53,174 nucleotides of DNA from a virus: positions 64,001-117,174 of IMG/VR virus record IMGVR_UViG_3300034022_000267; one strand, 5' to 3'. The position numbers and the translations under genes were made by a program. Positions 1 through 49,606 of this stretch are shown here, in pieces (the stretch's first letter is position 1; each line of letters opens with the position of its first letter). A model generated the notes under the pieces. That model was not told where the DNA came from, ran no database searches, and saw nothing but the letters and a program-made list of their open reading frames with translations.

Positions 1-236
1 CCTTTAAGGCTAATATTAAAAAATATTCCTTCACAATTTATTCCATTTATGTTAATACTTGATGCTACTAAATATGTCAAAACGAACTGTCTACAAGGAT
101 TTTCTGTAGTGGTAGTTGTAGTGGTAGGACAACCTCCTATACACATTTGACTATTTAATCTATCAAGCTGTTTTGATATTTGCCATAAGAGATTAGCCTT
201 TTCACTCCAGCCTATTTGTTTTGGTGGTATTGCCAT
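1..236 (-). CDS. Thr-linker adhesin with QIGWS-type anchor (partial, C-terminus outside window)
   Basis: Seventy-eight codons are visible from an ATG at 236 and the frame runs off the window edge, so the C-terminus is missing. The first ~30 residues contain QIGWS, NLLWQISKQL and a following D-R, which closely match the N-termini of the next two upstream genes (starts 987 and 1618). A short Cys-flanked segment (MCIGGCP) and a poly-Thr linker follow, then a new domain beginning NPCRQFVLTYL. This looks like the third member of a tandem family of virion adhesins in which a common anchor carries different tips. The anchor role is inferred from the conservation pattern. The tip cannot be identified from what is visible. 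Confidence 0.75.
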   Translation of the reverse strand, partial: MAIPPKQIGWSEKANLLWQISKQLDRLNSQMCIGGCPTTTTTTTENPCRQFVLTYLVASSININGINCEGIFFNISLK

Positions 237-246: not shown

Positions 247-987
247 TTAATCTATTAAACAACGCACTGAGAAACCAAGTTTCTTATTACTACTAAAACT
301 GAATGCAGTACCAGTGTTAGATGCTAGGTATTGATACCTAGCATTTGGAGTATCGTACTCTGACGAAGTCCACCAGTAACCAATGTAGCCAATGTTGGAG
401 AACGGCCCAATGTTGTAGCGATAACCTCCTGGTAATGCTGTAAAACCACTAATGTTAGTAGCATCTGTATTTGGAGCATTCCAATTAGTTGTTCCAACTT
501 CTTTTAGTTTTCCTCCAGCAACAGTAAGTCCTCCTAAAAATGTTGTTAACGTGGTCCATTCAGTATCAGTAGGTACATGTTGACCAAGTGGAGCTAAACC
601 CCTTGGGTCGTTCACAGCATACCAATTGTATATTTTTCCATAAATTGGTCCATTTGCTGGGTCATTGTTATAATAACACCAAGCCCCTGTAGTTAAAGCT
701 TTCCAAGCTGTAGCGCCTTGCACTTCAGGAATAGGATCTCCATTAGCATATGTAACAACTTCTAAATTTCTTAAAATCCAAGTTTGATCTCCTATTAAAA
801 TAGAAGGTATTGCTTCTGTAGTTGTGGTAGTTGTAGTTATTGGAGCAATAGTAGTAGATGTGGTAGTGGTAGATGTAGGGCAATCACCTGTACACATAAT
901 AGAATCCATTCTATCTAATTGCTTAGATATTTCCCATAAGAGATTTTCTTCTTGTGACCACCCAATTTGTCGATTACCTATTGCCAT
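247..987 (-). CDS. Adhesin with QIGWS anchor, Thr linker and FISUMP (C-type-lectin-like) domain
   Basis: Encodes 246 aa. I chose the ATG at 987 (MAIGNRQIGW) over a longer frame opening at 1068 because it aligns with the start of both paralogues and leaves a 16-nt spacer after the preceding stop instead of a 65-nt overlap. Residues 1-~30 are the shared anchor, ~31-57 a Cys-flanked Ser/Thr linker. The rest is a FISUMP (Fibrobacter succinogenes major paralogous, TIGR02145-type) domain: IGDQTW, ANGDPIPE, GKIYNWYAVNDPRGLAP, HVPTDTEW, LPGGYR, WWTSSEY and the terminal GFSVRCL are characteristic. FISUMP domains have a C-type-lectin-like fold and sit in surface and phage tip proteins. Likely role: receptor-binding tip. 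The exact virion location is unknown. Confidence 0.85.
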   Translation of the reverse strand: MAIGNRQIGWSQEENLLWEISKQLDRMDSIMCTGDCPTSTTTTSTTIAPITTTTTTTEAIPSILIGDQTWILRNLEVVTYANGDPIPEVQGATAWKALTTGAWCYYNNDPANGPIYGKIYNWYAVNDPRGLAPLGQHVPTDTEWTTLTTFLGGLTVAGGKLKEVGTTNWNAPNTDATNISGFTALPGGYRYNIGPFSNIGYIGYWWTSSEYDTPNARYQYLASNTGTAFSFSSNKKLGFSVRCLID

Positions 988-1003: not shown

Positions 1004-1618
1004 TTAGTTATATACTCTGATTTCAATAGGTGTGTCAGATAATAAACTATCTCCATTAAAGTCACCACCTTGTGTTTTAATATAAAGAACGTCAGGGCCT
1101 TGATTATTTACACTAATATAAACAGGCTCTATAATACCATTATTATCTATCACTGAATCTGCTATTCCCCAAGTTTTATAACTATGTAATAACCCATTAC
1201 TATTCATAATATAAGTTCCAACACCCTCATACGCAAACCAAATATTACCAATAGTGTTTTCTAATACTGTTACTACTGGAGCTCCTTCATCGTATTCTAA
1301 ACTTTTTGTTCCCCAACTATTTGGTGTTGTTCCTGTTGCAACAAATGATGTATTTGCATCATTATTAGGAGCACCTACATTTGTAAAATCACCCCCAGTA
1401 CCACCACTTTTAATTAAATAAGTAACACCTACTGTTAAATCACCAGATGTTATAGCAATAGGACTGTTTACACCACTCTGTGTTAATAAAGCTGTATACA
1501 CTTTATATTTAGGCTTAAGCCCAAACATAATTGATGTTAATCTATTAAGTTGTTTTAATATTTGCCAAAGTAAGTTAGATTCTTGAGACCAACCAATTTG
1601 TCTAGAAATTATTCCCAT
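1004..1618 (-). CDS. Adhesin/fibre protein with QIGWS anchor and YTALLTQSG-type fibre domain
   Basis: Encodes 204 aa. Residues 1-~30 (MGIISRQIGWSQE, NLLWQILKQLNR) are the anchor shared with the two downstream genes, but this copy has no Thr linker and moves directly into a fibre-like domain. That domain begins YKVYTALLTQSG and contains TSFVATGTTP, VVTVLENT and EGVGTYI, wording I recognise from many uncharacterised fibre proteins of Bacteroidota phages. The arrangement suggests an exchangeable tip on a common base. It is the first gene after the 1.64-kb promoter candidate and so may begin a separate adhesin transcript. Confidence 0.75.
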   Translation of the reverse strand: MGIISRQIGWSQESNLLWQILKQLNRLTSIMFGLKPKYKVYTALLTQSGVNSPIAITSGDLTVGVTYLIKSGGTGGDFTNVGAPNNDANTSFVATGTTPNSWGTKSLEYDEGAPVVTVLENTIGNIWFAYEGVGTYIMNSNGLLHSYKTWGIADSVIDNNGIIEPVYISVNNQGPDVLYIKTQGGDFNGDSLLSDTPIEIRVYN

Positions 1619-32995: not shown

Positions 32996-35900
32996 TTATA
33001 CTGTTGTTGTAGTGGTAGTTGTTATTATACTTTCAGTTAATGACGCTCCTACACAATTTATAATTTGTGCTGCTGAAGTTACACCAGTTAATTCTAGAGA
33101 AGTGGTAGCAATTAATAAATAAGGACTTGTTTTTTCAACACCGTAAACTACACCATCTGCTTGAGCAATGTAAACTGTGCAATCACATTCAAATATCGAT
33201 AATGGTGCAACTGTTCCAATGTTTAGATCTAATTCAATAGTTCCTGTAGGATAAGTATATTGAGTTAAATAATAATCATTTGATACAGTGTCTTGATTAA
33301 TTACAATTAATTTTCCATCATTTGTATATAACATATTTCCAAATGCTATTCTATCAACTTGTAAAGCAAACTGTACAGTAGATATCATTAACATTGGACT
33401 AATAGGATTATCAATTTCTAATTCCACAATATTTAATGGAGAAACAGAATTATCAACAGCAATGATTAAACTGTCACTTATTGCAACTATTCCTGAAGAT
33501 GTTGTAAATGTTCCAGGAAAAGGAATTGCTGTATTATATGTAGCAGTGAATGGACTTAATGTAATATCCCATTGATTAAACTCTGTAGCTGTAACTGACC
33601 ATAAATAATTTTGTGTTAAAGCTATTCCATATGAAGTGGTGTATCCAGGTACATTTAATTGTAACATTGTTAAAAATGAATCATAATAGTAAATATTATT
33701 AGTATCTGAAAATATAATTCCACAGCATTCGGAAATACTTGGAATAAGAGTTGTTGTACTTGTAGTTGTTCCACAATCACAATCTCCAATTTCAATAATA
33801 ATTGCATTTAACACTCTATAAGCAAAACCGTAAACTTGACCTTCAAATGTATAATACCATCCATCACTTACAAATGTACAATCTGTAGAATTTGCATCGT
33901 AATAAAGAATAGAATTTATTTCTAAACTATTTGCGTTTAATGAAAATCCTGATAATGCTACATTAGGATTATTTAATTTTGTTATAGAAAGTGCATTACA
34001 CGCATCCTCTAAACTACCTGTTGATACTACAGGAGGATTTACATCAACTGTATATCCAGAAATAAAAGAGAAAGAGTTTAACCCTATTGGTCTTGTACAA
34101 ATTGTAGTTGTTGGTACTGATGGAACTGTTATAATAGCATCTCCTTCTAGTTCACAACTAGTGGCTATAACTACTCCTGCTAAATTACAATCTTTAGGTT
34201 TTTCTGTTGTAGTGGTTGTTGTTAATTTTGGTGAAGTGGTAGTAGAAGTAGTTGTTGGAATAATTCTATTCATATCTCCAACTAATGCTGTAAAATCTCC
34301 ATCAACATCTGAACAACATCCATTAATACCAGAATAGAAGAAATTGTTTTCTCCTACATAAAAGTTTGGAAGATAACTATGAAAACTCACCCAAGTTTTA
34401 GTATTGAAGTTAAATGATATTGTCCAACTCTTATTGCAGAAGTATTCTAAATCTGTTAGATAAACTTGTGTTTTAAATACACTTCCATTAGTTATAGTTT
34501 CAATATAAAATTCATTTAACGCTGCATCATATTTTATATCTTTATCAATAGGGATATAATCTAGTTTAGTTAAAATAATTCTATCAAACTTACTATCATA
34601 CACTCCATGTAATCCTAATCCATTAAAATGATTATCTGTATCTGCAGTGGGGTAGTATCTAAGTATCTCAAATGCTAAATGATCTGTAAAGAATCTATTC
34701 ATCCCAGAACCAAATGCTGATAGATCTACAGCTTCTGTACCAGATATCAAAAACACTTGTCCTCTTTTAGCATCTATACTAATTTGTCCTTGTGGTATCT
34801 TTAATAAGAACTTATTCTGACTTCCTACATACCCAAGATCTGTTTCTGCAAAATCAATTGGAGGAGCACTAAACATGTTAGGATTACCTACGTATGCTGC
34901 TTGTGGGTTACTTGTATCAATTGTAAGGAGGTTGTTATACATCAATGACTTATTCTCAAATCTAGCAAGTATGGCTCTATTCTGAATACCATCTAAAGAA
35001 GTTAAATTTCCATAATTCTGTGGAAAATCAAAATACGAAAGAGCTCTGTACACTAACCAATTATTCACTCTATTATCAGCATCTGTTTGTTGAGCATCTG
35101 AATATATAGCTCTAAATGGATAATTTGTATAACAAGCTTTATCCCAATCATTTGGAATATGTGTAAATGTATTTTCTTTATTTTGTTTAGAGAATGTTAC
35201 ATTATATGTATATGTATTATCATTTGCAATACTTACATAACTTTCTTGTACCCAATCATCAGGAATACCTGTACTTACGTGAGGCCAGAAGTCTCCTTCT
35301 TTATTATTGAATGCTTGTCTAAGATCTAAGTTATAACTTGTTTCACAATAGAAATTAGGTATCCCATATGCAAATAAATAGAAATACCCATCATAAAAAG
35401 TTCTACTAGTACTAGTTAACACTTGACTTGTTAAAACTGTTGTTGTAGTTGTAGTAGTTCCTGGATCTATTAAAGGATTTTCAATAAAATCTTGACTGTT
35501 AGGACAATCAAAATTATGTGCTTTATAAGAAATAATATTAGAAATTACTTTTCCTTTTAGTGTATAATTTTTTAAAATTGATCTAGCAGAATGCCAGTAT
35601 TTTGGATAGGCTATATTACCAATCTCATCATAGAATATATCACTATCATCAGGAGCTCCCACTCTATTATCAAAGAAAAAAGGAAGTTTAGTTTTAAATG
35701 CAAATCTAGATATAAACGTATCTCCACCAAATATAGTTGCAGAAGATGATCCTGTTATAGGAGTTATATCTTTTTGAAATCCTGTGTCAATTGTTTCATA
35801 TGAATATATCTGTCCCCATTGATTTACAAAATTATTTTTCATAGATGCATAATAACACACACTACTTATGTTTTGATCTCTTAATGGCGTTGCACAAGAA

Positions 35901-38884
35901 TCGCTACTTGATATAGTTCTTCTAGATATATCTGTAACAATACTTGTTCCTCCAGAAATCATATTAGGAGAATCACTTGGGAAAAGTAATGGTGGTATAA
36001 CTACTCCTTCTCTCTCTTCTACTGTTTTTATAAAGACAGAAGATTCTCTTTGGTAGTTATTTATATTAAACTCTTCTCCTATAGATTGTACTCCTGGAAT
36101 TAAATATTGTGTTAAATCAATTTGTCTTTGTTTAATTCCTAAGTTGTTATCTATAGATTTCCAATAATCATAATTCATAATTGAATTATAAGAATAAGCA
36201 TAATTCTTTCTTGTTATACCATTTACATAAATAGTTAAATAAGCTTGATATGCTGTCCACATTGCAGTGGCATTAAAAGAATCAGTAATATCTCCAATTC
36301 TTTTTGAACTATCAAGAGCTTCAACTTGCGCTTCTTCAGATAATAGTTTATATTTAGCATTATTCCTTACTGCAACAAAATGTGCTTGTCCTTTTCCAAA
36401 AATAACATTTTCTAATTTTAATACATTACCTAAGAATGGTTGTCCAAATGCTGTTTCAGGAGAATTAAATACTTGTCTATATCTAGAACTATCTGTTGTA
36501 AATGCAGATAATTGTTCTGGTTGTAATGGGTTTAATGTTGATCTTCTACTTACAGTGGGAACAAACACTTGATCATAGTCAATATATCCTGTAACTTCAT
36601 TTAAATTTTGTATAGTAGGAAGTGTAAAAGTAACTTCAGCACCACAAGATGGAGGAAGTCCTCCATCAGGACATATAATTTGAACATCGTTGTCTACTGT
36701 TACAGATGCGTATAAATCTTCAGCAGGAATTAAACTTCCTAAAAACAAAGCAGTAGGATCTAAAAAATTAGATTTACTTTCTGAACTATTGTTTCTAGAA
36801 AAAGGTGTATTCCATTTAATTGTAAAACCTGATGTGCTATTTTCTGCTGTAGCATAATAAACATCATAGTTTCCTGGACCAATTAAAATTCTACCTCCAG
36901 TTCTTACTGGTCTAGAAACAGAAAGAAACTCATGCGTTTCTCCTACTGCAATTCTTCTAGTAGTTTCTTTTCCTGTATTAATGTCTATGTATTTATATTT
37001 ACCTGGACCATTTAGTAGAGAATATCCATAATCAGGATTTATTACTAACCAAGGTTCGGCAGCTGTTTCATATGCATTATTATTTTTTATCAAGAAAGGA
37101 TCTTCATTAAGATCATTATATGGATAATTAGGAAAGTAAAAAGTTTGTTCTTGTTTAGTGTATTCACCAACGTTTCTTAATATTCCTTTACCAACAATAG
37201 ATTTGTTTGTTCCTCTGTTACCTCTTACAATTTTAAATCCTTCTATATTATCTTTTTGAGCTAATGTAAGATTTGAAGAAGCAATTAAACTATTTACTTG
37301 ATTAAGATCTATTTTTACACCAATAGGAAATACAGCATCGTTCTGCATCACCATACCCTCTGCTGATATAAACATTGCAGATTCAAAATGTGGAGATACT
37401 AATACATCTGGGAACTTATGATGTCTAATTGGTTGATTAGCTAAATCACCCCATATAGCCTCATTACAAGGATATACATCTTCTGATTCCCAATAAGCAA
37501 ATTCACCATATTCATGTGGTGTAGCATTTCCAATATTAATAATAGAAGGTGATGTTCCAGTAACTGAAGCTGTATTATAAATTCTCCAATATGGTGCTTC
37601 TGTTCCTTCTCCTATAAAATCAGGATTACTATTTAAAATATTTGGTAACGATTGTTCTAAAAAAGATATAGCTCTACCAGGAATATGAAAACCATCTGTT
37701 TGTTTTCCATTCTTAAGCAAGAAGACAATTTCAAATGCATACACCTCATCACGTAGGTATCCTCTAAGATTAGTAGCATTTAATTCATCTGAATAGTTTT
37801 CTGTTGCAGGAATTTTATATGTTTCCCACTGTAAGTTTATATTAGACGCTATAGATTGATAATTAACTCTATCAATAGATGTTAGTCCTTTCCACACAAG
37901 AACGTCTTGTACAGCTGTTATATCATCTGCTAATTCATAATATGGAAACTTTTCAAATATATCAGAGATACTTAAACCTATTTGTATTTGACCTGTGTAG
38001 GTTATGTTCTGTGTTAAAGAATCTATAAAATATGTTCCTATTAATTCAGGAGTGGATATATCATTTATTGTTTTAATTACAGCAAGATTGAAATATTGAA
38101 ACTGTCCTGTTTCATCTAAGTTGCTAACATTAACAACAATAGATTTACCCACTGCATAATTAAAATTAACAGTGGTTATCCGTGGATCAGCAATAGGTGT
38201 AGGATTTGTAATTGAATAATAAGCTGTGTAAGGATTCCCTACTGAATCAGCATATTGTATAGCAAACTGATATACACCAGCAATTAAGTTTCCACCTGTC
38301 ACTACATCAACAATAGCTAATTGTGGGATGTTAAAATTAGGTTGCAATTTTAATTGATTACAATCTAGTTCATTTGAATACAATGGATCACATCCTGAAT
38401 AATTTGAAACAATAGTTCTAGGAATACTTTCAATATCTAAATATCTTCTTCCATTATTATCTGGCCAAAATATCTCTGTTGAGCAGTTAGATATTTTATG
38501 TACCACTTTATGTATTGGATAGTTTACATCAAAGTTTAAACAATTAGCATTTACTAATGTTTGATATACACAATCATTATTATCCATAAATCCTATTTCA
38601 CTTTCTTCAGTTACAGGATTCTTTAAAAAGAATATATGTTTATTTTTTTCTTGTATGAAATGTGTACCTAAAAGAACAAAGTTATTTGGGAATGTAACAC
38701 ATAATTCATTACCAGGTTCGTTTTGATAATTAACAGAATTAGAATCAAAATTTTCCACAGCAGCATTCAGGGCATAAGTTAACATCCCTGGTTTAATTTG
38801 ATTAGCTGTTTGATCTAGATTTAATCCAACAGTAGCATTGTTATACTCTTGTTTAATATTCCCTTGTTGTTGTTCTTCTGCCAT
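32996..38884 (-). CDS. Tail muzzle (P22 gp10-like stabilisation) protein with adhesin-like C-terminal extension
   Basis: Encodes 1962 aa. The N-terminus (KQEYNNATVGLNLDQTANQI, then TYALNAAVENFDSNSVNYQN and IFFLKNPVTEESEIGFMD) is typical of crAss-like muzzle proteins, related to the P22 gp10 tail-needle hub, which closes the portal channel. It follows three ring-type proteins, as in that group. Poly-Thr linkers at about residues 1140, 1541-1563 and 1704-1713 and a poly-Thr C-terminus divide the distal part into modules. The last ~240 residues have WD/propeller-like repeats (NYLWSVTATEFNQWDI, DSLIIAVDNSVSPLNIVELE). The distal modules could contact the host surface (inference). Confidence 0.8.
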   Translation of the reverse strand: MAEEQQQGNIKQEYNNATVGLNLDQTANQIKPGMLTYALNAAVENFDSNSVNYQNEPGNELCVTFPNNFVLLGTHFIQEKNKHIFFLKNPVTEESEIGFMDNNDCVYQTLVNANCLNFDVNYPIHKVVHKISNCSTEIFWPDNNGRRYLDIESIPRTIVSNYSGCDPLYSNELDCNQLKLQPNFNIPQLAIVDVVTGGNLIAGVYQFAIQYADSVGNPYTAYYSITNPTPIADPRITTVNFNYAVGKSIVVNVSNLDETGQFQYFNLAVIKTINDISTPELIGTYFIDSLTQNITYTGQIQIGLSISDIFEKFPYYELADDITAVQDVLVWKGLTSIDRVNYQSIASNINLQWETYKIPATENYSDELNATNLRGYLRDEVYAFEIVFLLKNGKQTDGFHIPGRAISFLEQSLPNILNSNPDFIGEGTEAPYWRIYNTASVTGTSPSIINIGNATPHEYGEFAYWESEDVYPCNEAIWGDLANQPIRHHKFPDVLVSPHFESAMFISAEGMVMQNDAVFPIGVKIDLNQVNSLIASSNLTLAQKDNIEGFKIVRGNRGTNKSIVGKGILRNVGEYTKQEQTFYFPNYPYNDLNEDPFLIKNNNAYETAAEPWLVINPDYGYSLLNGPGKYKYIDINTGKETTRRIAVGETHEFLSVSRPVRTGGRILIGPGNYDVYYATAENSTSGFTIKWNTPFSRNNSSESKSNFLDPTALFLGSLIPAEDLYASVTVDNDVQIICPDGGLPPSCGAEVTFTLPTIQNLNEVTGYIDYDQVFVPTVSRRSTLNPLQPEQLSAFTTDSSRYRQVFNSPETAFGQPFLGNVLKLENVIFGKGQAHFVAVRNNAKYKLLSEEAQVEALDSSKRIGDITDSFNATAMWTAYQAYLTIYVNGITRKNYAYSYNSIMNYDYWKSIDNNLGIKQRQIDLTQYLIPGVQSIGEEFNINNYQRESSVFIKTVEEREGVVIPPLLFPSDSPNMISGGTSIVTDISRRTISSSDSCATPLRDQNISSVCYYASMKNNFVNQWGQIYSYETIDTGFQKDITPITGSSSATIFGGDTFISRFAFKTKLPFFFDNRVGAPDDSDIFYDEIGNIAYPKYWHSARSILKNYTLKGKVISNIISYKAHNFDCPNSQDFIENPLIDPGTTTTTTTVLTSQVLTSTSRTFYDGYFYLFAYGIPNFYCETSYNLDLRQAFNNKEGDFWPHVSTGIPDDWVQESYVSIANDNTYTYNVTFSKQNKENTFTHIPNDWDKACYTNYPFRAIYSDAQQTDADNRVNNWLVYRALSYFDFPQNYGNLTSLDGIQNRAILARFENKSLMYNNLLTIDTSNPQAAYVGNPNMFSAPPIDFAETDLGYVGSQNKFLLKIPQGQISIDAKRGQVFLISGTEAVDLSAFGSGMNRFFTDHLAFEILRYYPTADTDNHFNGLGLHGVYDSKFDRIILTKLDYIPIDKDIKYDAALNEFYIETITNGSVFKTQVYLTDLEYFCNKSWTISFNFNTKTWVSFHSYLPNFYVGENNFFYSGINGCCSDVDGDFTALVGDMNRIIPTTTSTTTSPKLTTTTTTEKPKDCNLAGVVIATSCELEGDAIITVPSVPTTTICTRPIGLNSFSFISGYTVDVNPPVVSTGSLEDACNALSITKLNNPNVALSGFSLNANSLEINSILYYDANSTDCTFVSDGWYYTFEGQVYGFAYRVLNAIIIEIGDCDCGTTTSTTTLIPSISECCGIIFSDTNNIYYYDSFLTMLQLNVPGYTTSYGIALTQNYLWSVTATEFNQWDITLSPFTATYNTAIPFPGTFTTSSGIVAISDSLIIAVDNSVSPLNIVELEIDNPISPMLMISTVQFALQVDRIAFGNMLYTNDGKLIVINQDTVSNDYYLTQYTYPTGTIELDLNIGTVAPLSIFECDCTVYIAQADGVVYGVEKTSPYLLIATTSLELTGVTSAAQIINCVGASLTESIITTTTTTTV

Positions 38885-41072: not shown

Positions 41073-41699
41073 TTATATTCTTTCTTTAAACCATTTGAAT
41101 TTATAAGCAGTTGGTTTTTTATTATTAACACATGAAGATATATGTGATATATCAAATTTTAACTCTCTCTTAATATCTGACATACTATCCCAAACTTTAA
41201 TAAATGTATTATCTAAACTATATTGATAAACTTTAAATGCTCTATGATGATCTTTTCCAAATTTACCTCTAGTAGAATGATTCTTTTCTAAATTTTTAAT
41301 ACATTGTTCTTTTCTAATACCTATCATTCTTTTTTTAGCAGAAATAGATTGTTTAAGTTTTGTCTCTTTAGAAAGTATTACTCCATCTCTTCCTTCTCCT
41401 CCATTTGTAAAATTACACAAAGTTCCTAAATTTAAATCTTTTCTACCGTATAATTTTATAAATTCTTTTTCTTTCTCTATTATAAAACTTCTATTATCAC
41501 TTTCAAATAAAATTTCTACATCATAGTTTGTAAAATTTATTATGTTTAACCAGTGATTATTTCTATTCTTAGTAGTATAAGCTCTTCTATATTTTTCAGA
41601 ATCTTTACTATAAGATTTAGTATTTTTATTAATTTTTCCTATACCAATATAAAAAATCTCATTCTTATCTAATCTAATATGTCTATATAAGTAATACAT
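41073..41699 (-). CDS. Free-standing GIY-YIG homing endonuclease with NUMOD-like C-terminal domain
   Basis: Encodes 208 aa from the ATG at 41699; an ATG four codons earlier exists but 41699 gives a TAATG junction with the previous gene. N-terminal YLYRH (3-7) and FYIGIG (16-21) form the GIY-YIG core, with RNNHW, a likely catalytic Glu in the EKEKEF helix (~75-80) and LCNFTNGGEG (95-103). The C-terminal KVYQYSLDNTFIKVWDSMSD (~156-175) through SSCVNNKKPTAYKFKW is a NUMOD-type DNA-binding module typical of homing endonucleases. It sits between the phosphoesterase and ring genes as a compact insertion. Confidence 0.85.
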   Translation of the reverse strand: MYYLYRHIRLDKNEIFYIGIGKINKNTKSYSKDSEKYRRAYTTKNRNNHWLNIINFTNYDVEILFESDNRSFIIEKEKEFIKLYGRKDLNLGTLCNFTNGGEGRDGVILSKETKLKQSISAKKRMIGIRKEQCIKNLEKNHSTRGKFGKDHHRAFKVYQYSLDNTFIKVWDSMSDIKRELKFDISHISSCVNNKKPTAYKFKWFKERI

Positions 41700-42922
41700 T
41701 ATATACGACATTCGAACTCTGCAATCTTGCCTAATATAGGATCATATACAAGAGCTAATGCTGCACGTACTGAGTGTACAAAGTTATTATCTAGGTGCCA
41801 TCTATCTGTTCCAGATAAGCTAGGCATTTGTTGTATTCTTACACCTTTGACTTCTTTAGCCATATAATGGTGTTTATCTCCTGTGTGTATCTCTCTGTAT
41901 TTAGCATTACCAAAGAAATAACTATATTCAGGATGTGTAGCAAACAATAAAGGAAGATCATCTAATTTACAATTACCATGGTGCCATCCAATAAATGTAT
42001 TACCGAGCACCTTTGCTTTAATAACTGAATGTTCTCTTATAAAATCTACATCAGCATCTTTACTAAAATACACATCTAATGCGTGTGCTAGATAGAAAGA
42101 TTTAGTTCTATCATGGTTACCCTGTACAAGAACAACTGTAACATCATTACAATGTTGTCTTAACATATTGATTGTATCTACAAGAACAGCAAATCCTAAT
42201 TCATACTCTTCTGCATAATCCATTATAGTGTCTTGTGGTGTACCTTGTGTAGTTTGGTTTTGATAGTTATCTGTATGAAAGAAATCATTTGATATAGGAA
42301 GTACAACAGTGTTTATATTGTAATTAGCTTCCACTTTATTAATCAAAGACTGAGCCACATTAAAATATCTTAAAGCTCGTGCCCCAGGACTATTGTCACC
42401 ATCTACACATTTTTTAGCTAAATGAAAATCAGCTATAGATATTTCTACATCCACGTGATCTTTTACTAGACTAGGATCTGCTTTAATGATTGATATATTG
42501 GTTGGTGTGTAGTTTTCTAAAAACTTAGCAAAGTCTTCAGGAGAATAGTCTTTAGGTTGTTTTCTCTTTGAGAAGATGGAAGAAGTAAACTTTCCATTGG
42601 GTAACATCTTAGACCAGTAGTTGGTAATGATGTATTTATCTAGATTTATCTTGTGTAGTTTGGCTAGTGCTATATCATCTTTAGGTTCAAAGTTACTAGT
42701 GACAGTACTTTCTATTGTACCTTTTTCAACATTTACCTTTCTAGTTTCTTCTGTATAATTCTTATTTACATTTGCTGGATCATCGTCTTTCTCTCTGAGT
42801 TCTTTAAGAAGCTCATTCACTTCGTATTCACTTATTCCTAACTTATCTGCGTAGAACTTTTTACTCTTCTTCTGGGTTAACAATTCTTCTAATCTGTACA
42901 ACAAGCTTTGATTTTCAGACAT
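41699..42922 (-). CDS. Calcineurin-like metallophosphoesterase with N-terminal helix-turn-helix
   Basis: Encodes 407 aa. The two-metal phosphoesterase motifs are in order: D-x-H (Asp165, His167 in IADFHLAKK), a GD-equivalent Asn212-Asp213, GNHD (268-271), His314-315 in GWHHGN and GDKHH (348-352). Residues ~14-42 (LTQKKSKKFYADKLGIS, then EYEVNELLKELRE) look like a helix-turn-helix. The fold covers protein phosphatases and Mre11/SbcD-type nucleases; the HTH favours a nucleic-acid substrate. It is the first gene after the 43.0-kb terminator, behind its own promoter candidate, and reads into the neck genes. Role in virion assembly or DNA handling unknown. Confidence 0.82.
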   Translation of the reverse strand: MSENQSLLYRLEELLTQKKSKKFYADKLGISEYEVNELLKELREKDDDPANVNKNYTEETRKVNVEKGTIESTVTSNFEPKDDIALAKLHKINLDKYIITNYWSKMLPNGKFTSSIFSKRKQPKDYSPEDFAKFLENYTPTNISIIKADPSLVKDHVDVEISIADFHLAKKCVDGDNSPGARALRYFNVAQSLINKVEANYNINTVVLPISNDFFHTDNYQNQTTQGTPQDTIMDYAEEYELGFAVLVDTINMLRQHCNDVTVVLVQGNHDRTKSFYLAHALDVYFSKDADVDFIREHSVIKAKVLGNTFIGWHHGNCKLDDLPLLFATHPEYSYFFGNAKYREIHTGDKHHYMAKEVKGVRIQQMPSLSGTDRWHLDNNFVHSVRAALALVYDPILGKIAEFECRI

Positions 42923-43100: not shown

Positions 43101-43382
43101 TTAAATAGTAGTAGTAGTGGTAGTTGTTGGTGCCACTGTTGTGGTTGTAGTGGTTGTTGGTGATACTACAGGTATATCAATAAAATTAGTACAAGACAAT
43201 CCTAATGATAAAACTCTAATAGTTGTTGTAAAATCAGGAACTAATGCTGAAGCATATCCAGCAATTAAAGTGGCTCTACTAATGTTTGTTTCAAAAGCAG
43301 AAGTAAATCCATCTATATCTGAATATAAGTTAAAGGGCCCTGCTGAAGTTCCTGCTGTAGTTAATGTTATGTATACTGTCAT
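43101..43382 (-). CDS. Small virion protein with SAGPF domain and poly-Thr C-terminus
   Basis: Encodes 93 aa from the ATG at 43382 (MTVYITLTTAGTSAGPFNLY). A longer frame from 43436 is disfavoured because its first codons are simply the poly-Thr codons of the previous gene read in another frame. The SAGPF domain matches the N-terminus of the 288-aa protein next to the muzzle gene. The C-terminus is a double poly-Thr tract with no domain after it, like the ends of the 399-, 182- and 1962-aa proteins. It may be a partner subunit of the adhesins. It is the last gene before the terminator. Confidence 0.6.
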   Translation of the reverse strand: MTVYITLTTAGTSAGPFNLYSDIDGFTSAFETNISRATLIAGYASALVPDFTTTIRVLSLGLSCTNFIDIPVVSPTTTTTTTVAPTTTTTTTI

Positions 43383-43393
43383 ATTATATTGGT

Positions 43394-43942
43394 TTAAAGT
43401 GGAAGAGTTGTGGTTGTAGTGGTTGTAGTAGGACAAATTCCTCTATCTGATTTAATAAATACACCAAACCTTTGTAATGTAGAAGGTATTATACAAGGTG
43501 TATCTATAGATTGTGAAATATTTAATACTCCTCCAACAAAAACTGGATCTTTTCCAGAATTACATAAAGCTGCAACCCATATTCCAGGACTTGCTTCTCC
43601 CTGTAAATTATAATAATGACATTCTTCTACCACTGTAGTAGTAGTTGTAGTTGTTTCACATCCCCATACAGTTTCACAATCTACAGTGTTATTTACAATT
43701 GTTGTAAATTGATTATATAAACTTATATTGTTAGTAATGTTATTAATAATTGTTTCAACCATTCCTGGACCACATATAAAGCCATCTATAGATTCAAACA
43801 CACTAGTTAATGTGTCACAGTTTGCCACTCCTATACAATCTAAAGCAGGTCCTTGGTATACGACATCATCTGTTGATGTTTTACATCCACATGGATTGTT
43901 TTCACATCCACAATTTGTATTAATATTATTTGTACAAGACAT
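43394..43942 (-). CDS. Adhesin-like virion protein: MSCTN anchor, Thr linker, one Cys-bracketed module
   Basis: Encodes 182 aa. Residues 1-~95 are a Cys-rich anchor (MSCTN, VVYQGPALDCIG, DTLTSVFESIDGFI, NNTVDCETVWGC) clearly paralogous to the start of the 290-aa protein and, less closely, of the 366-aa collar-domain protein. A poly-Thr linker leads to a ~60-residue module (CHYYNLQGEASPGIW to TPCIIPS) and the protein ends in poly-Thr then LPL. Tandem copies with shared anchors suggest several fibres or decorations attached to the same virion site. No enzyme motif; likely adhesion. Confidence 0.65.
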   Translation of the reverse strand: MSCTNNINTNCGCENNPCGCKTSTDDVVYQGPALDCIGVANCDTLTSVFESIDGFICGPGMVETIINNITNNISLYNQFTTIVNNTVDCETVWGCETTTTTTTVVEECHYYNLQGEASPGIWVAALCNSGKDPVFVGGVLNISQSIDTPCIIPSTLQRFGVFIKSDRGICPTTTTTTTTLPL

Positions 43943-43965
43943 TTTTATTTATTTTTAAATTATTA

Positions 43966-44838
43966 TTAACAAGTACCTTCAAAAGATACTTCACCTTTAT
44001 ATAAAGGGGCAGTTGTAGTAGGCGTACCATTAGCACATACTATCTGAGTTGTATTTCCTGGAACTATTATAGGAATATCAGGTCTTCCTAAACAAGCATT
44101 GTAGAAAAATAGTATTGAGTCTTCAGTCTTAGCTTCTAAACCATAAGAAGCACAACCAACAAATTCTGTAGTGGAAGATGTTGTTGTTGTGGTTGGTGCT
44201 GCTGTAGTAGTGGTGGTAGTTGTACACTCTGTTTCATTTACTATAACAGCTTGTGTCAATACTAATGTATTATTAATTATACAAGGTGTAACAACTGTAT
44301 TTCCAGCTAATGGTATAATTCCTCCTGTTCTAGCAAATGCACACGTAGTAGCAATCCAACTTGCATTGTTTACCAATGCTTGAAGTGTATAAGTTACACA
44401 CGCATCTGCCACAGTGGTAGTAGTGGTTGTTGTAGAACTACTACTTGATGTTGTTGTAGTGGTTGAACTACTACTTGTTGTAGTTGTGGTGGTTGGTTCT
44501 ACCGTAGTGGTAGTGGTAGTCGTAGTTGGTACTGGCCCACATGCATCTATAGTCTCACAACTTATCACTCCATTAACAAGTTCTATAAACTCAGGATATT
44601 CTTCTGGGTTATCTTGTATAAGATCTAATATATATTGAGTTAGTTCTATACTACATAAAAAATAACTTAATTGTTGTAAAATTTCAGAAGCTGTCATTCC
44701 TGGAGTAATACCAGAACATTCTCCAGCAATACCCTCATAAATTAAATCACTAGCTGTAAGTCCAGAGTGATTACAACTTGTTCCAGGATTATTTGGAGTT
44801 TCTGTACAATTACATTTTTTTGGTAGGAATGGCCACAT
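43966..44838 (-). CDS. Adhesin-like virion protein: anchor, Thr/Ser linkers, two Cys-bracketed modules
   Basis: Encodes 290 aa. Residues ~20-105 are the anchor shared with the 182-aa protein (LIYEGIAGECSGI, MTASEILQQLSYFLC, LVNGVISCETIDACG). A long Thr/Ser linker (~107-145, TTTTTSSSSTTTT-like) follows, then module one (CVTYTLQALVNNASW to TPCIINN), a second Thr linker, and module two (CASYGLEAKTEDS to IVCANG). The modules resemble the single one in the 182-aa protein, so module number differs between paralogues. The gene starts 1 nt past the stop of the collar-domain gene. Probably a surface-exposed adhesin. Confidence 0.65.
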   Translation of the reverse strand: MWPFLPKKCNCTETPNNPGTSCNHSGLTASDLIYEGIAGECSGITPGMTASEILQQLSYFLCSIELTQYILDLIQDNPEEYPEFIELVNGVISCETIDACGPVPTTTTTTTTVEPTTTTTTSSSSTTTTTSSSSSTTTTTTTVADACVTYTLQALVNNASWIATTCAFARTGGIIPLAGNTVVTPCIINNTLVLTQAVIVNETECTTTTTTTAAPTTTTTSSTTEFVGCASYGLEAKTEDSILFFYNACLGRPDIPIIVPGNTTQIVCANGTPTTTAPLYKGEVSFEGTC

Positions 44839-44839
44839 A

Positions 44840-45940
44840 TTAAGCTGGGATATACATTATATAATAACAAGCAAAAACTGGTTGAATATTTGAATGAGGT
44901 AAATTACCTCCTGTAGGTTTATTATCTATTGTTGTAACAACAGTTAAGTTTGTTGATGCTGGAAAAGTTGTTAATCCTGAAGCCAACACTCCATTGTTAT
45001 AAGCTGAAGGACCTCCTGATCCACTTCCTCCTCCTGGTAAATCATGTTGATGAGGTTCTTCTGTAACTACAGAAGCAACAGTGTTTGGATGAAAATGACT
45101 TGGCATTTGTGTAACTCCTAATGTAATTTGATTTGCTCCTTGAGTTGTACTTAAAGCATATGCTGGATTACCATTTACTCCAGGTAGAACTGCAGGATCT
45201 GTTATAGTATTTCCTAACATAGAAGTAGATGTTACTAAAACTCTTCCTCTTAAATCAGGAACTCCTGGGTTAGCTCCATTACATAAAAATATTCTATCCC
45301 ATATACCTAGTCCTGCACCTGATCCATCAAAATTAGCAAATGATCCTCCAGGAGGAAAATAAGGAACTGCAGCATAAGGAACCATTCTGTTACTTATTAA
45401 TTGTTGCGAAGGTGCTGTTGCTAAATAATTTGCTGCATAAGTATTAAAGTCAGTAATTAAAAGATAATTAACTAAATTTGTTGAAATTGTTGATACAGCA
45501 CTATTCAATGTACAAAGATTAGTTATTACTGCTTGTAGAATAGCATGTGTATTTGAAGAAGCTGTTACACCTGTTAAACATCCAATTGTGTAATCTGCAT
45601 TTAATATATCTAATTCACTATTGATACTAGCTACTTCTGTTTCTAAATCACATACTGATTTAATAATAGCTGTTAATATATCATTTAAAGATATTCCTGT
45701 ACATCCTGAACATACAGGAAGGTTGTTATTAATAATTGTACAAAGTATAGAAGGATTTAGTGTTGGGAATATTTCTTCTCCTAATATAAAAGATTGTATA
45801 TAATTAAATATTGTTTCTTCTATAGACAATAAAGTATCACCATTAGTAATACCAAGACCAGGAACATCTACTCCTGTATATTTTACGCACTGATCTGAGA
45901 TAGTTTCAGCACATCCATTAAAGCAATTTGTACAAGACAT
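44840..45940 (-). CDS. Tail-collar-domain fibre protein
   Basis: Encodes 366 aa. The N-terminus starts MSCTNCFNGC and contains NGDTLLSIEETIFNYI, the anchor theme of the next two genes. A predicted helical segment runs to ~175. The C-terminal domain is a phage tail-collar (PF07484-like) fold: GIWDRIFLCNGANPGVPDLRGR with PDLRGRV at 228-234, a Gln-rich loop, metal-binding-type HFH (282-284) and HQH (297-299) pairs, and the terminal HSNIQPVFACYYIMYI. Collar domains occur in short tail fibres and bind iron or receptors. A (TAAAA)5 repeat lies in its leader and may tune expression. Confidence 0.82.
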   Translation of the reverse strand: MSCTNCFNGCAETISDQCVKYTGVDVPGLGITNGDTLLSIEETIFNYIQSFILGEEIFPTLNPSILCTIINNNLPVCSGCTGISLNDILTAIIKSVCDLETEVASINSELDILNADYTIGCLTGVTASSNTHAILQAVITNLCTLNSAVSTISTNLVNYLLITDFNTYAANYLATAPSQQLISNRMVPYAAVPYFPPGGSFANFDGSGAGLGIWDRIFLCNGANPGVPDLRGRVLVTSTSMLGNTITDPAVLPGVNGNPAYALSTTQGANQITLGVTQMPSHFHPNTVASVVTEEPHQHDLPGGGSGSGGPSAYNNGVLASGLTTFPASTNLTVVTTIDNKPTGGNLPHSNIQPVFACYYIMYIPA

Positions 45941-45950
45941 AATATATATA

Positions 45951-45975
45951 TTTTATTTTATTTTATTTTATTTTA
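45951..45975 (-). repeat. Five perfect TAAAA tandem repeats in the leader of the collar-fibre gene
   Basis: The plus strand reads TTTTA five times without interruption, from 45951 to 45975. The repeats fill most of the 35-nt gap between the stop of the LRR-like gene (45976) and the ATG of the collar-fibre gene (45940). Pentanucleotide repeats in leaders are prone to slipped-strand length change. Confidence 0.9.
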
Positions 45976-47631
45976 TTAATTTAAAACTACATTACCTGAT
46001 CCAATAAGTGCAACTAATGCGTTGTAAGCAACATCACTCGCTGACGTTCGTTTAGGTGTTGAACCACATTTAATTATAAAGTCACTATAAGGGACATAAA
46101 TATAACTAGGTTGAATATCATTTAACAAATTGTCTGTTTCTGTTGAGTTAAACCCTGTCCAACTACCACCAAATGCTGGTTCTATAGTTAAACCTGTATA
46201 GGAAGAAGCCCAAGTTCTACCTGATGAAGAATAACTAAAGTTATTATTACCATTTTGTACAGTAAAACTAATTATTAGTGGTGGTAATAAAAATAAATCA
46301 CCAGTTAAAGTATTAAAGCCTCCTATGCGTATAGCAATTGATGATAATGGTAATGTTGTTATATCACCACTAACTGTATTATTACCAAGTATAAGAGCAA
46401 TCTCTATGTTTGGTGGTAATGTAGATATATTACCACTTATTGTATTATCTCCATCAATTTCACAGATTATAAGTGACCTTGGTAAATTTAAAACAGTTCC
46501 ACTTATTGTGTTATCACCATCAATTCTTAGTTGTCTTACTGAAGGTAAATCAGATGTATCACCACTTATAGTATTAAAACCTCTAATTATCATCGTTGAA
46601 CTTGTCAGCATACGTGGTAAATCAGATGTATCTCCACTAACTGTATTATTACCCTGTAAATCTAGTGTACTAGTTAAAGTGTTTGGAAATCCTGATGTGT
46701 CACCACTAATAGTATTAGTACCATATATACCCATAAGTGTTAAAAATCTTGGTAAATCAAATGTAGTTCCACTAACATCAGTATTTTGAAGAACTAACTC
46801 AGTTATAGTGCGTGGTAAATTTAAAACATTTCCAGTAATAAATAAACCATCATTAGGCCATGCTCTTAAATCATCTAATTGATCTAATTTCTCTAATTCA
46901 CTTGTTGATGTCCATAATGATTGAGAGTTGTGAGGATTTGTTTCTGATTTAAAGGCTGTTATTGACGATAGATCTGTTGATAAAATTTTAATTTGTCCTG
47001 TATATGGTAATAAATATGTGTGAAATATATTAGTTGATCCTGATGGGAATGATTCTATATTACCATCTCCCCAATCTATATAATAAGGAAGTGACGCTGT
47101 TATTCGAAACCCATATATTGGTGTGGTACTACTCACAGTAGGAAAAATTTCAGTAACACCTTCAGCGTTAATTATAAAATCTTCGAGTGGTGCTTCTGTA
47201 GTGGTGGTTGTAGTAGTACTACTTGTACTAGTAGTTGTAGTACTAGTAGAAGTACTGGTACTAGTAGAAGTACTGGTACTTGTACTAGTAGAAGTGCTTG
47301 TACTAGTACTTGTAGATGTTGTTGTAATTCCTGTACCAGAAGTACGACAGCTACAATCTTTTATACATCCAGATGTGAACCTTCTCACTTTACTAGCAAT
47401 CATATTAACAGTGAAATGTCCTGCATAGTTTGGATTACACACCTTGTACTGTAGAATACGTTTATAGTTCAATAAATCAGAAAGTAACTCATGGTTGAAA
47501 GATTTGTTTAGCATAAATACAACATTGTTATATAAGCTAACACTCATCTCTGCAACCTTGCAGTCTATACTTTCAATTAATGAACATATATCTTCGCATT
47601 CTGCACAATTAGTTAATCTAGGTGTTAACAT
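45976..47631 (-). CDS. LRR-like repeat adhesin with Ser/Thr linker
   Basis: Encodes 551 aa. Residues 1-~100 are a Cys-containing base (LTNCAECEDICSLIESIDC; LLNYKRILQYKVCNP) that I recognise from other crAss-like and Bacteroidota phage proteins. A ~45-residue Thr-Ser alternating linker follows. The outer part has IDWGDGNIESFPSG, as in BspA-like/DUF285 surface proteins, then eight repeats of 21-23 residues on the pattern N-T-[IV]-S-G-D-x-S-x-L-P, which should form an LRR or beta-solenoid. The C-terminus (TSASDVAYNALVALIG) looks like a cap. Likely a receptor-binding or decoration protein. Its start overlaps the 39-aa gene by 7 nt. Confidence 0.72.
   Translation of the reverse strand: MLTPRLTNCAECEDICSLIESIDCKVAEMSVSLYNNVVFMLNKSFNHELLSDLLNYKRILQYKVCNPNYAGHFTVNMIASKVRRFTSGCIKDCSCRTSGTGITTTSTSTSTSTSTSTSTSTSTSTSTSTSTTTTSTSSTTTTTTTEAPLEDFIINAEGVTEIFPTVSSTTPIYGFRITASLPYYIDWGDGNIESFPSGSTNIFHTYLLPYTGQIKILSTDLSSITAFKSETNPHNSQSLWTSTSELEKLDQLDDLRAWPNDGLFITGNVLNLPRTITELVLQNTDVSGTTFDLPRFLTLMGIYGTNTISGDTSGFPNTLTSTLDLQGNNTVSGDTSDLPRMLTSSTMIIRGFNTISGDTSDLPSVRQLRIDGDNTISGTVLNLPRSLIICEIDGDNTISGNISTLPPNIEIALILGNNTVSGDITTLPLSSIAIRIGGFNTLTGDLFLLPPLIISFTVQNGNNNFSYSSSGRTWASSYTGLTIEPAFGGSWTGFNSTETDNLLNDIQPSYIYVPYSDFIIKCGSTPKRTSASDVAYNALVALIGSGNVVLN
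47197..47325 (-). repeat. Imperfect 12-18-nt repeats coding the Thr-Ser linker
   Basis: Units such as ACTAGTACAAGTACC and ACTTCTACTAGT recur throughout this stretch and encode alternating Thr-Ser, then poly-Thr. Unit lengths are multiples of three, so gain or loss of units would keep the frame while changing linker length. Similar but shorter Thr-coding repeats lie at about 44.17-44.22, 44.41-44.53, 43.40-43.43, 43.10-43.15 and 48.42-48.48 kb. Confidence 0.8.
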
Positions 47632-47744
47632 GATCTAAAAAATTTTAATGCTTTATTTACAGCAGCACGACAAGTTGCGCATAAGCCATCTTTTAATTGA
47701 CACCCACAACCAACATTAGTACCACAAGTTCTACAATTTGCCAT
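47625..47744 (-). CDS. 39-aa Cys-rich mini-protein, zinc-finger-like
   Basis: Reading from the ATG at 47744: MANCRTCGTNVGCGCQLKDG, then LCATCRAAVNKALKFFRSC and TAA. Six of the eight Cys form CxxC, CxC and CxxC groups, the spacing of a small treble-clef or zinc-ribbon knuckle; another Cys is the C-terminal residue. It lies 6 nt after the 187-aa gene, and its TAA overlaps the ATG of the 551-aa gene by 7 nt, so translation is probably coupled to both. Short Cys-rich genes at this spot exist in related phages as I recall. It could be a small virion cement or assembly factor; function unknown. Confidence 0.7.
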   Translation of the reverse strand: MANCRTCGTNVGCGCQLKDGLCATCRAAVNKALKFFRSC

Positions 47745-47750
47745 TTGATT

Positions 47751-48314
47751 TTAATTAAAGTTGTTTATATAATTATTACCAGAACATCCACAATTATTTC
47801 TTATGAAAGCTGTTAGTGCTTTATCTGCTTGATTATATAGTTTATTTGCATTTACTATTGCACAGTTATTAGCTGCTGCAATTGCTCCTTGAATAAAGAA
47901 ATATATGGAATTTAGTTCCACTTTTGATTGTGTTCTAATTGCACTATCGCACTCCATCATATCAAGTGTCATAAAAGCTTCATCGAATCTCTCTTGAATT
48001 TTATCTGTACGCATAATAGATTTTTCTATAAAGTTTGCATATGCAGGTGCAATGGAATATCTCAAGTGATATACACCATCAGGAAGAGGTTGATTAATGC
48101 CTGCTGATGAAATTCCTAAATTAGCTGACGTAAATGTATTATAACTATTTACATCAAAAGGAATAATTGCAACATTGAATCCAGGAGGAGTTATTTCTAT
48201 TGTTGGAGAAGTAACTACAGGAGGATCTGTTAAATACGTAGAAGTATCAACAACACCAAGTGTTAATGTATTATATGTAGGAACTACTAAGAAATCTAAT
48301 TTTAATGTTGGCAT
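47751..48314 (-). CDS. Putative virion protein, beta N-terminus and helical Cys-ending C-terminus
   Basis: Encodes 187 aa from the ATG at 48314 (MPTLKLDFLVVPTYNTLTLG). An in-frame ATG at 48368 lies inside the stem of a hairpin and would add 18 unlikely residues, so I reject it. The first ~100 residues are beta-rich (VTSPTIEITPPGFNVAIIPF; GVYHLRYSI) like a small jelly-roll or Ig-type domain. The rest is helical (KIQERFDEAFMTLDMMECD; IYFFIQGAIAAANNCAIVNA). Position after the auxiliary capsid candidate suggests a head- or tail-fibre base. Family not recognised. Confidence 0.55.
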   Translation of the reverse strand: MPTLKLDFLVVPTYNTLTLGVVDTSTYLTDPPVVTSPTIEITPPGFNVAIIPFDVNSYNTFTSANLGISSAGINQPLPDGVYHLRYSIAPAYANFIEKSIMRTDKIQERFDEAFMTLDMMECDSAIRTQSKVELNSIYFFIQGAIAAANNCAIVNANKLYNQADKALTAFIRNNCGCSGNNYINNFN

Positions 48315-48329
48315 GTTTTTATAATAAAT

Positions 48330-48368
48330 ATGCCAGAGGAATATGAGATTTCCTCTTTCCCCTGGCAT
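48330..48368 (-). other. 12-bp stem-loop between the auxiliary capsid and 187-aa genes
   Basis: ATGCCAGGGGAA (48368-48357, minus strand) pairs with TTCCTCTGGCAT (48341-48330) over 12 bp with one G-U, around a 15-nt loop. No U-run follows, so it is more likely an RNA-processing or attenuation element, or a 3' stabiliser for the abundant capsid mRNA, than a full terminator. Its G+C content stands out locally. Confidence 0.7.
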
Positions 48369-48406
48369 AGGTTATTTAATAATAATTTTTTTACTTCTTC
48401 TTATCC

Positions 48407-49606
48407 TTATGGAATGTTAGTAGAAGTTGTAGTAGTAGTTGAAGGAGCAGCAGTACTAGTAGTAGTTGTTGTAATAATACAAGCATTGTTATCTACAACA
48501 GCACCTAAAGCAGCTACTAACACTTCTTCAATGTCAGCAGCAATTGTACCAGTACCTGAAGCAGCATTTGGAACAGCAAGGATTACCATAGAATCTTCCA
48601 TAATGTAATCACCCCATTGGTAAGCAGATTTATCATATTCATTGAATTTGATATAATAAGTATCATATGTAGCACCACTAGATACCCAAGACTCAAAGTT
48701 CTCATTGTAACCAGCCATTCTGTAAAGGTGTTTCAAGTAACCAGCTTGGTAGCTATAGAAGTTTTTCTCTAATTGAGCAATTTCTGCAGATTGTCCTGAA
48801 GCGTAAGAAGCACGTTGTGTGATTACAGAGTTAGCAACAATGTTACAGTTGTCAGCAACAATAAAGTCAGCAGTAGTAGCTGGACCAGAATAAACAAAAG
48901 TTCTAAAAGACATTCTGTCATATTCAAAAGGGAAAGCAGCAACATCACATGGCTGACCATATACTGTTAAAGGTTTTCCAGTAATACGTAAAATAGTACC
49001 ACCTACATTTTCAAATGTAAAGAATGTGTTAAAGCTAATGTTATCAGGATTGATACCAGGAGCTTGTGCAGTTAATTTTGCAATCAATTGATTAATTAAT
49101 GCATTTGCATCAACATCGGTACATGGGTCACCACCACAATCACAACAAGGTGCTTGTACAGTTACTGAACGTGTAAATCCATTGAAATACAATGTATTAA
49201 TGTAAGAAGAGCTAGCACGCAATGTAAGTGTTAATGTATCACCACATTGTACAGAGAAATTAGTTACATCTGTAATTTGATTCGCAGCTGTAGGACATCC
49301 TGATGCTTTGTACCATTCTGTTACGTTAGAGCTGTTAGGTCTAACTGTCTGAGCAGCTCCTGTAAGAGGCAAAGCTCCACCAGCAATTCTGTCAGATCTT
49401 TTAGATCCTTGTAAATAAGTGTTATCTCTACCTTGTGCAATGTAGAAATAAGGAAACGTAGCAATATCTGTGCTATCTACTGTAGCATACAAATTGTTAA
49501 AGATTCCCACAATACCTGGGTCTAGGTCTTGTGTTGAGCCAGAGCTAGGGAGCGTTGCTTGCCCTACTGGAACCACGAATACCGTGGTTAATGAAAAATC
49601 AGCCAT
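48407..49606 (-). CDS. Candidate auxiliary capsid/major virion protein with poly-Thr C-terminus
   Basis: Encodes 399 aa. The N-terminus (MADFSLTTVFVVPVGQATLP) and PYFYIAQGRDNTYLQGSKRS are followed by beta-rich domains, a Cys cluster (CCDCGGDPC, ~153-161) and a helical part (AEIAQLEKNFYSYQAGYLKH). The protein ends with two poly-Thr tracts separated by AAPS. Codon choice looks more GC-balanced than in neighbours, as in the capsid gene, which hints at high expression. Placement three genes after the capsid gene fits the auxiliary capsid protein of crAss-like phages. Structural role inferred, not proven; the exposed Thr tail could be an attachment point. Confidence 0.55.
   Translation of the reverse strand: MADFSLTTVFVVPVGQATLPSSGSTQDLDPGIVGIFNNLYATVDSTDIATFPYFYIAQGRDNTYLQGSKRSDRIAGGALPLTGAAQTVRPNSSNVTEWYKASGCPTAANQITDVTNFSVQCGDTLTLTLRASSSYINTLYFNGFTRSVTVQAPCCDCGGDPCTDVDANALINQLIAKLTAQAPGINPDNISFNTFFTFENVGGTILRITGKPLTVYGQPCDVAAFPFEYDRMSFRTFVYSGPATTADFIVADNCNIVANSVITQRASYASGQSAEIAQLEKNFYSYQAGYLKHLYRMAGYNENFESWVSSGATYDTYYIKFNEYDKSAYQWGDYIMEDSMVILAVPNAASGTGTIAADIEEVLVAALGAVVDNNACIITTTTTSTAAPSTTTTTSTNIP

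Follow-up and report, generated by a model that had tools for sequence, protein, structure and literature searches.

Threonine tracts between conserved anchors and exchangeable tips in putative surface proteins of a crAss-like phage, with a candidate glycosyltransferase encoded beside them

The 53,174-nucleotide stretch analysed here (the window) comprises positions 64001-117174 of the 117,174-bp IMG/VR record IMGVR_UViG_3300034022_000267 and represents the structural half of a crAss-like phage. Its minus strand, on which all genes of interest lie, encodes a set of proteins that combine an anchor with oligothreonine tracts and often with one or more further modules, here called tips. Alignment of these genes with those of relatives has shown that the anchors are fixed, that the tips differ between close relatives and that the same tips occur on unrelated anchors. 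The explanation that we favour, with a probability of roughly 0.7 for the whole, combines an anchor, a tract and swappable tips with glycosylation of the tracts by a phage-encoded glycosyltransferase (GT) and with crossover at the tracts. Two loci would thus encode virion surface proteins, each composed of an anchor, a poly-Thr tract and zero or more modules with further tracts; the tips would be binding modules, the exchange of which would alter surface specificity, and the slots of a cassette would be filled from a common tip pool. Tips could be joined harmlessly at the tract because a module placed behind a stalk would leave the anchor undisturbed.

Pure runs of at least six threonines were found in eight of the 142 gene-like open reading frames (ORFs) of the entire record, as against 0.075 expected from shuffled proteins, and all eight fall in its structural half. 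Seven of them belong to the eight genes that a preliminary description of this DNA had listed as carrying poly-Thr or Thr-Ser tracts; the other encodes an anchor of 68 amino acids (aa) with two tracts, just left of the window. The remaining gene of that list, slot Z in Table 1, has the mixed tracts TTTTTST and STTTTTST, and all eight listed genes do bear tracts at or near the places described, including the one truncated by the window edge, the full product of which has 109 aa. Likewise, four proteins end in poly-Thr as described, namely the large virion protein and those of slots D, E and Z, and the anchors do recur: the IGWS..LLWxI anchor three times, once without a tract, the Cys-rich anchor in slots C and D, and the TxxGxxAGPF anchor in slot E and at the N-terminus of 32127-32993. 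The FISUMP tip proposed earlier is borne out by its Pfam match (Table 1).

Relatives were collected from IMG/VR, 80 loci via the capsid gene (94-98% capsid identity) and 80 via the downstream exonuclease. Conservation of their DNA extends from window position 53174 down to about 47500 and sets in again near 43100, and the intervening stretch is hypervariable; the exchangeable cassette corresponds to 43101-47631, and slot Z to a fixed structural gene. Slots A, B, C/D and E of the relatives have anchors homologous to those of the window, that of slot A being conserved across 93 distinct proteins and that of slot E being common to 111 relatives, many of which have tips beyond the same tract. The tract starts at a fixed position after each anchor (about 113 in A, 88 or 119 in D, about 75 in E), and what follows it is either a stop or modules with more tracts between them, 263 of the 490 distinct tract proteins ending within 12 residues of their last tract. 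Clustering of the inter-tract segments yielded 34 tip families of three or more members, 20 of which occur on at least two anchor families, i.e. non-homologous proteins share a fragment, as in a domain mosaic. FISUMP tips, for example, sit in relatives on the anchors of slots A, C/D and E and in the window on an IGWS anchor, and the LRR-like tip of the window has a match of about 86% DNA identity behind a different anchor in locus L037, where homology to the window's A gene ends inside the tract.

In slot A the presence of a tip goes hand in hand with that of a tract: 49 of the 74 genes with a tract have a tip, versus none of the 18 without one (Fisher test, 1e-7). Of 94 relatives, 90 lack a tract in slot B, which served as the control, and 92 have one and the same C-terminal family there. 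The slot Z protein terminates in a tract in 92 of 94 relatives, with exactly three residues following the tract in 85 of the 92, and has a tip in none. The second locus, left of the window, is organised in the same way around two more anchors, YVRFDG and IGWS. The former is followed by a tract near aa 49 in 71 of 76 cases, 59 of the 71 being empty; the latter has a tract in 37 of 47, 17 of them empty and 20 tipped with nine families. A protein with an ice-binding-like domain (DUF3494, PF11999, E 1e-19) is also encoded at this second adhesin locus.

What does a recent exchange look like? Loci L050 and L058 are 99.9% identical over the 6,094 bp before the slot A junction and 99.3% identical over the 4,785 bp after it, and the region differs essentially by one FISUMP tip, since slot A encodes a 121-aa anchor ending in TTTTTTTVV in one of them and a 340-aa protein with a FISUMP-like tip in the other. 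On the 5' side the switch falls within the opening codons of the Thr tract, where both share CCAACAAC, and on the 3' side within the leader of the next gene, directly before the shared AATAATATG. Here the exchanged piece extends from tract to leader; modules extending from tract to tract were found too, and crossover may take place in the A/T-rich leaders as well. A tandem repeat, (TATTT) x 5.8, occupies 45949-45977 in the slot A/B leader, near the 3' exchange junctions. Lectin-fold domains are known targets of diversity-generating retroelements, and a retroelement of this kind could in principle vary the C-type-lectin-like FISUMP tip. This idea is barely credible here and was rejected, as no reverse transcriptase (PF00078) was matched in the 117-kb record and the variation consists of gain, loss and exchange of whole modules.

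The preliminary description had predicted that breakpoints between different tips on reused anchors would cluster in the Thr tracts, and this holds in about 160 IMG/VR loci of relatives. Because the segmentation of tips used the tracts themselves and was thus the analyst's own choice, boundaries were also tested on unsegmented DNA. At 84% DNA identity or more, the boundary of homology lies in the tract or within 15 bp of it in both genes for 16 of 18 tip-sharing pairs, compared with 5% for random positions; in same-slot pairs of at least 90% identity the tract is where homology stops in both genomes in 89% (A), 71% (D) and 64% (E), against a null of 3-6%. Such pairs are non-independent events, and the more honest sample is the best pair for each of the 21 combinations of anchor pair and tip family, where 86% of 5' ends lie within 15 bp of a tract, at a median distance of 0. 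The first cross-anchor statistics had been diluted by FISUMP pairs at 70-80% identity, and a first region-wide test gave mixed classes because the tract-less slot B is itself very diverged; it was then run per slot. On our interpretation, crossover would be favoured at tracts because fusions are tolerated there and short microhomology is available, with help from the UvsX-like recombinase that the phage encodes together with an exonuclease VIII-like protein.

Is it then the DNA of the tract or its peptide that is maintained? The pure runs comprise 369 of five threonines, 148 of six, 568 of seven, 88 of eight and two of nine, with none beyond, and in the second locus 13 of six, 131 of seven, 27 of eight, two of nine and one of ten. 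In unrelated phages with P-T6 or more (Tn denoting n consecutive threonines), by contrast, numbers simply decay (43 of six, 17 of seven, six of eight), with runs of up to 26. All tract genes share this preferred length of seven and a hard limit near eight or nine, and consecutive runs are most commonly spaced by three residues (unit P-T7-x-A). Codon order within the runs is random (adjacent identical codons 0.380 versus 0.374 expected), and ACC reaches 0.16 within pure Thr runs versus 0.024 outside. A length held at seven and spelt with scrambled codons suggests that selection acts on the peptide, the length of which looks to be selected, and that the DNA is not a maintained repeat.

It could be objected that selection acts on the tracts as repeated DNA that serves for recombination, the peptide being a by-product, for junctions do lie inside them and an exact match of at least 12 nt occurs in 21% of random tract pairs, as opposed to 0.1% for other coding stretches. 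The random codon order, the enrichment of ACC, the fixed run length in amino acids and the tract of slot Z, which is retained and never exchanged, make this very improbable; selection for a DNA repeat was rejected on codon order and ACC enrichment, the tract being held at the peptide level. The earlier notion of tracts as DNA-level recombination points thus survives in so far as breakpoints fall there and chance microhomology is more frequent, not in the sense of maintained repeats.

Just left of the window, beside the second locus, lies a gene of PHROG 4417, the product of which is, judged by its predicted structure (mean pLDDT 92), a GT-A-fold glycosyltransferase. The best PDB matches of the model are glycogenin, xyloside xylosyltransferase and blood-group transferases (E about 7e-6, TM 0.4-0.55), all of the GT-A type, and the DxD pair D106/D108 is invariant among 35 sequences. 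Among 58 relatives the GT gene is adjacent to a tract gene in 36 and no more than five genes away in 49. Members of the family also occur in phages of Chryseobacterium, Lactobacillus, Lactococcus, Enterococcus, Staphylococcus and Arcanobacterium, and Thr-rich tails or tracts, mostly C-terminal, were found near the GT in all 14 lineages opened, 13 of them besides this phage. Structural proteins of Lactococcus phages 1706 and CHPC971 have terminal runs of 8-10 Thr (in 1706 two such proteins, with 9-10 Thr plus HHD; T10-HHD among the tails), the head protein of Enterococcus phage phiFL2B ends in T7-QG, a protein of Lacticaseibacillus phage R3.3 in TTTTTTSHA, the tail protein of Arcanobacterium phage TPWB06 in T9-P, and vipetofem and Lactobacillus phage Iacchus have the tails T9-AAGK and T7-ASK, respectively. 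Looser tails are seen in Planchet (TTTDPVTTTSTT), SAC12B (TTVxP) and LP65 (TETQT), and in Chryseobacterium phage MA9V-3 two genes neighbouring the GT contain long T/S tracts in their interior. Where the host is a lactic-acid bacterium, an enterococcus or a staphylococcus, the GT adjoins capsid or tail-tube genes with poly-Thr ends (loci L346-L352, L353-L424 and L464-L469).

All 72 IMG/VR loci retrieved with the phiFL2B enzyme, which belong to one clade, contain tract genes, and 39 portal relatives of R3.3 divide into 14 with GT and tract, 24 with neither, one with the GT only and none with a tract only, the single exception (L433) having broken frames in its GT and capsid region. Counting long loci only, the association gives a Fisher p of 7e-7, a value that overstates it, because many of the 72 loci are near-identical and because the GT-positive and GT-negative Gram-positive loci belong to different clades, which makes the association partly phylogenetic. 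A strict Thr-run criterion was adopted here because a looser measure of Thr/Ser density did not set the GT-negative loci apart, seven of 13 having such an ORF. A GT-A fold, a DxD pair, adjacency and co-occurrence are thus found together, as one would look for in phage-encoded O-glycosylation with a GT near the genes of its acceptors, here putative. The tracts would be O-glycosylated by the phage's own PHROG 4417 enzyme; where they separate modules they would act as extended stalks, and where they close a protein they would decorate its C-terminus. The idea of O-glycosylated stalks, put forward in the preliminary description, thereby receives indirect support from the predicted GT-A gene beside the tract genes and from its co-occurrence with poly-Thr tails.

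Might the tracts, nonetheless, be flexible linkers and nothing else, with illegitimate recombination falling anywhere, only joins at linkers surviving and no glycosylation taking place? A linker is a natural site of tolerated fusion, the scrambled codons speak against selection at the DNA level, and the tracts are predicted, at low confidence, to be unstructured; in the AlphaFold model of the slot C protein the module at aa 142-205 reaches a pLDDT of 82-96, as opposed to less than 50 for the tracts and their flanks. We nevertheless consider this unlikely, as it would not account for a run length held at seven, for the occurrence of the tracts together with one GT family in phages that are unrelated, or for the C-terminal tracts of 263 of the 490 proteins and of slot Z, where there is nothing to link. 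A PDB search with the Cys-bracketed module returned no fold match (best E 0.44).

The C-terminal tracts had earlier been described as 'awaiting a partner'. This fits slot A, which alternates between empty and filled in near-identical genomes; it does not fit slot Z, with a tract in nearly all relatives and never a tip, or the Gram-positive phages, the capsid and tail proteins of which end in the same kind of tail, with a peak at seven Thr (22 of 49) and a maximum of nine. Because the GT family adjoins virion proteins with Thr-rich tails across lineages, C-terminal poly-Thr is more likely, as far as can be judged from sequence, a glycosylation tag than a vacant joint; a tag would account better for slot Z and for the tails in Gram-positive phages, slot A being evidence that a vacant slot can be filled. 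It is conceivable, with about even odds, that a tag of some seven threonines is read by PHROG 4417 in phages of Bacteroidota, lactic-acid bacteria, enterococci and staphylococci and in at least one Arcanobacterium phage, that these phages add it to the C-terminus of selected virion proteins so as to coat them with sugar, and that crAss-like phages have made it a universal joint for exchanging adhesin modules among unrelated anchors.

Several observations besides the clade structure of the Gram-positive loci weigh against the combination of swappable tips, glycosylated tracts and crossover at tracts. In FISUMP pairs at 70-80% identity the boundary often lies tens of bases within the tip, the DNA of slot B is strongly diverged despite the absence of a tract, nine of the 58 GT loci (some of them fragments) have no tract gene nearby, and ten IGWS proteins have a C-terminal domain without a tract, which is therefore not always needed. 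Breakpoints at tracts may also reflect selection for viable fusions rather than where recombination starts. Finally, some joins could be artefacts of metagenome assembly, given that nearly all relatives are metagenome contigs and that tracts are of low complexity. That the swaps as such are chimeras formed at repetitive tracts is, however, most improbable: the positions of the tracts are fixed in hundreds of genes, a single T7 tract measures 21 bp and is shorter than ordinary reads, and another record, perhaps from a related sample, contains 18,345 bp of the window region at 100% identity.

Table 1. Genes of the anchor-tract-tip system and neighbouring features. Positions refer to the window, or to the record where marked G000:C1.
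Feature	Coordinates	Strand	Organisation or match
Slot A	45976..47631	-	Anchor aa 1-102; Ser/Thr tract aa 103-145 (47197-47325); LRR-like tip aa 146-551
Slot B	44840..45940	-	Tail-fibre-type, without tract, one C-terminal family; PHROG 8469/8763 tail fibre; control
Slot C	43966..44838	-	Cys-rich anchor, tract 44413-44526, module, tract 44167-44223, module
Slot D	43394..43942	-	Cys-rich anchor, T7 43634-43654, module, C-terminal T8 43406-43429
Slot E	43101..43382	-	TxxGxxAGPF anchor, two T7 runs (43107-43157), stop; empty slot
Slot Z	48407..49606	-	Structural protein, C-terminal Thr/Ser tract 48419-48472, never a tip
Large virion protein	32996..38884	-	Tracts 35438-35458, 34205-34255 and 33749-33769; C-terminal T7 33002-33022; PHROG 37948/15100 virion structural protein
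IGWS anchor with FISUMP tip	247..987	-	Tract 817-876; PF09603, E 2e-41
IGWS anchor with small tip	1..236	-	T7 105-125; runs on left of the window
IGWS anchor without tract	1004..1618	-	Fixed C-terminal domain
DNA repair exonuclease, SbcD/Mre11-like	41699..42922	-	PHROG 704, E 5e-51; borders the cassette
GT gene	G000:C1:62862-63875		337 aa; about 0.1-1.1 kb left of the window; PHROG 4417 (annotated unknown function)
68-aa anchor gene	G000:C1:62644-62850		Two tracts
Ice-binding-like protein	G000:C1:60615-61925 (L084:615-1925)		DUF3494
GIY-YIG-like gene	41073-41711		
HNH-like gene	31549-32073		
Two-hairpin RNA element	43021-43106	-	Hairpin 1, 43062-43091; hairpin 2, 43038-43061

The assignment to crAss-like phages rests on the 797-aa portal protein of the record, which has matches in 137 phage records, those to crAss-like portals covering 95-99% of the length (E about 1e-47 to 1e-21). 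Since phages of Bacteroides, Flavobacterium and Cellulophaga dominate these matches, the host is probably a member of the Bacteroidota. The capsid protein in the window matches PHROG 11589, and head and virion PHROG families do match the structural proteins of the record; a single-sequence PDB search with the capsid and large virion proteins gave no match, solved crassvirus proteins included. Placing the anchors on the virion was tried and abandoned, there being no sequence match to a solved crassvirus and the anchor being predicted at low confidence. Among annotated phage records no relative of the slot E or YVRFDG anchor was found. The slot Z protein has a weak match to Peptidase_A4 (E 0.0016), below the curated cut-off. 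Two small genes inserted within the structural module, one GIY-YIG-like and the other HNH-like, look by eye like homing endonuclease genes. Between slot E and the exonuclease lies a two-hairpin RNA element with a covariation score of 0.543, versus 0.239 when shuffled and 0.09-0.14 when slid. Its hairpin 1 has a near-invariant loop, TTT[G/A]TTGGTTTT, on a strongly covarying stem, and hairpin 2, followed by a T run, resembles an intrinsic terminator; Rfam returned no match at the gathering score.

How does this arrangement compare with known systems? In T2-type gp38 adhesins the motif belongs to one folded tip, a polyglycine II lattice, and loops vary (PMC12892980), whereas the Thr tracts of the present system connect entire modules, unrelated to one another, with several unrelated anchors and are associated with a GT; instead of glycine-rich motifs flanking variable loops, the tracts consist of Thr/Ser in seven-residue units with Pro. 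The sharing of a fragment among otherwise non-homologous proteins resembles the mosaicism of phage receptor-binding proteins, where such recent fragments are most abundant in tail fibres and spikes (PMC10684548); neither joints made of threonine tracts or linkers nor multi-slot arrays supplied from one pool of tips are mentioned in that survey. Collagen-like phage tail proteins likewise combine low-complexity stalks with varied domains in related prophages (PMC3368898), their stalks being triple-helical GXY repeats and those considered here Thr/Ser runs without GXY. Short N-terminal anchors bearing distal parts are also reminiscent of phicrAss001, to which the portal homology of the present phage points as well and in which the anchors of the head fibres (residues 1-38 and 1-58) and of gp22 (1-26) bind the capsid or docking hubs while the distal parts are flexible; the words threonine and linker do not appear in that paper (PMC10172136). 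Putative capsid glycosyltransferases of mycobacteriophages have been suggested to modify capsid proteins (PMC11256854); by comparison, the candidate acceptor here is a recognisable oligo-Thr tail or linker.

If the proposed scheme is true, it would assign a function to PHROG 4417, a family that many phages of lactic-acid bacteria, enterococci and Bacteroidota encode, and would turn a C-terminal or inter-domain oligo-Thr run into a readable rule for glycosylated virion proteins. For this environmental group of crAss-like phages, it would describe surface modules that are swapped from a shared pool of tips among unrelated anchors, with slots that may stand empty, between genomes that are 99% identical elsewhere.

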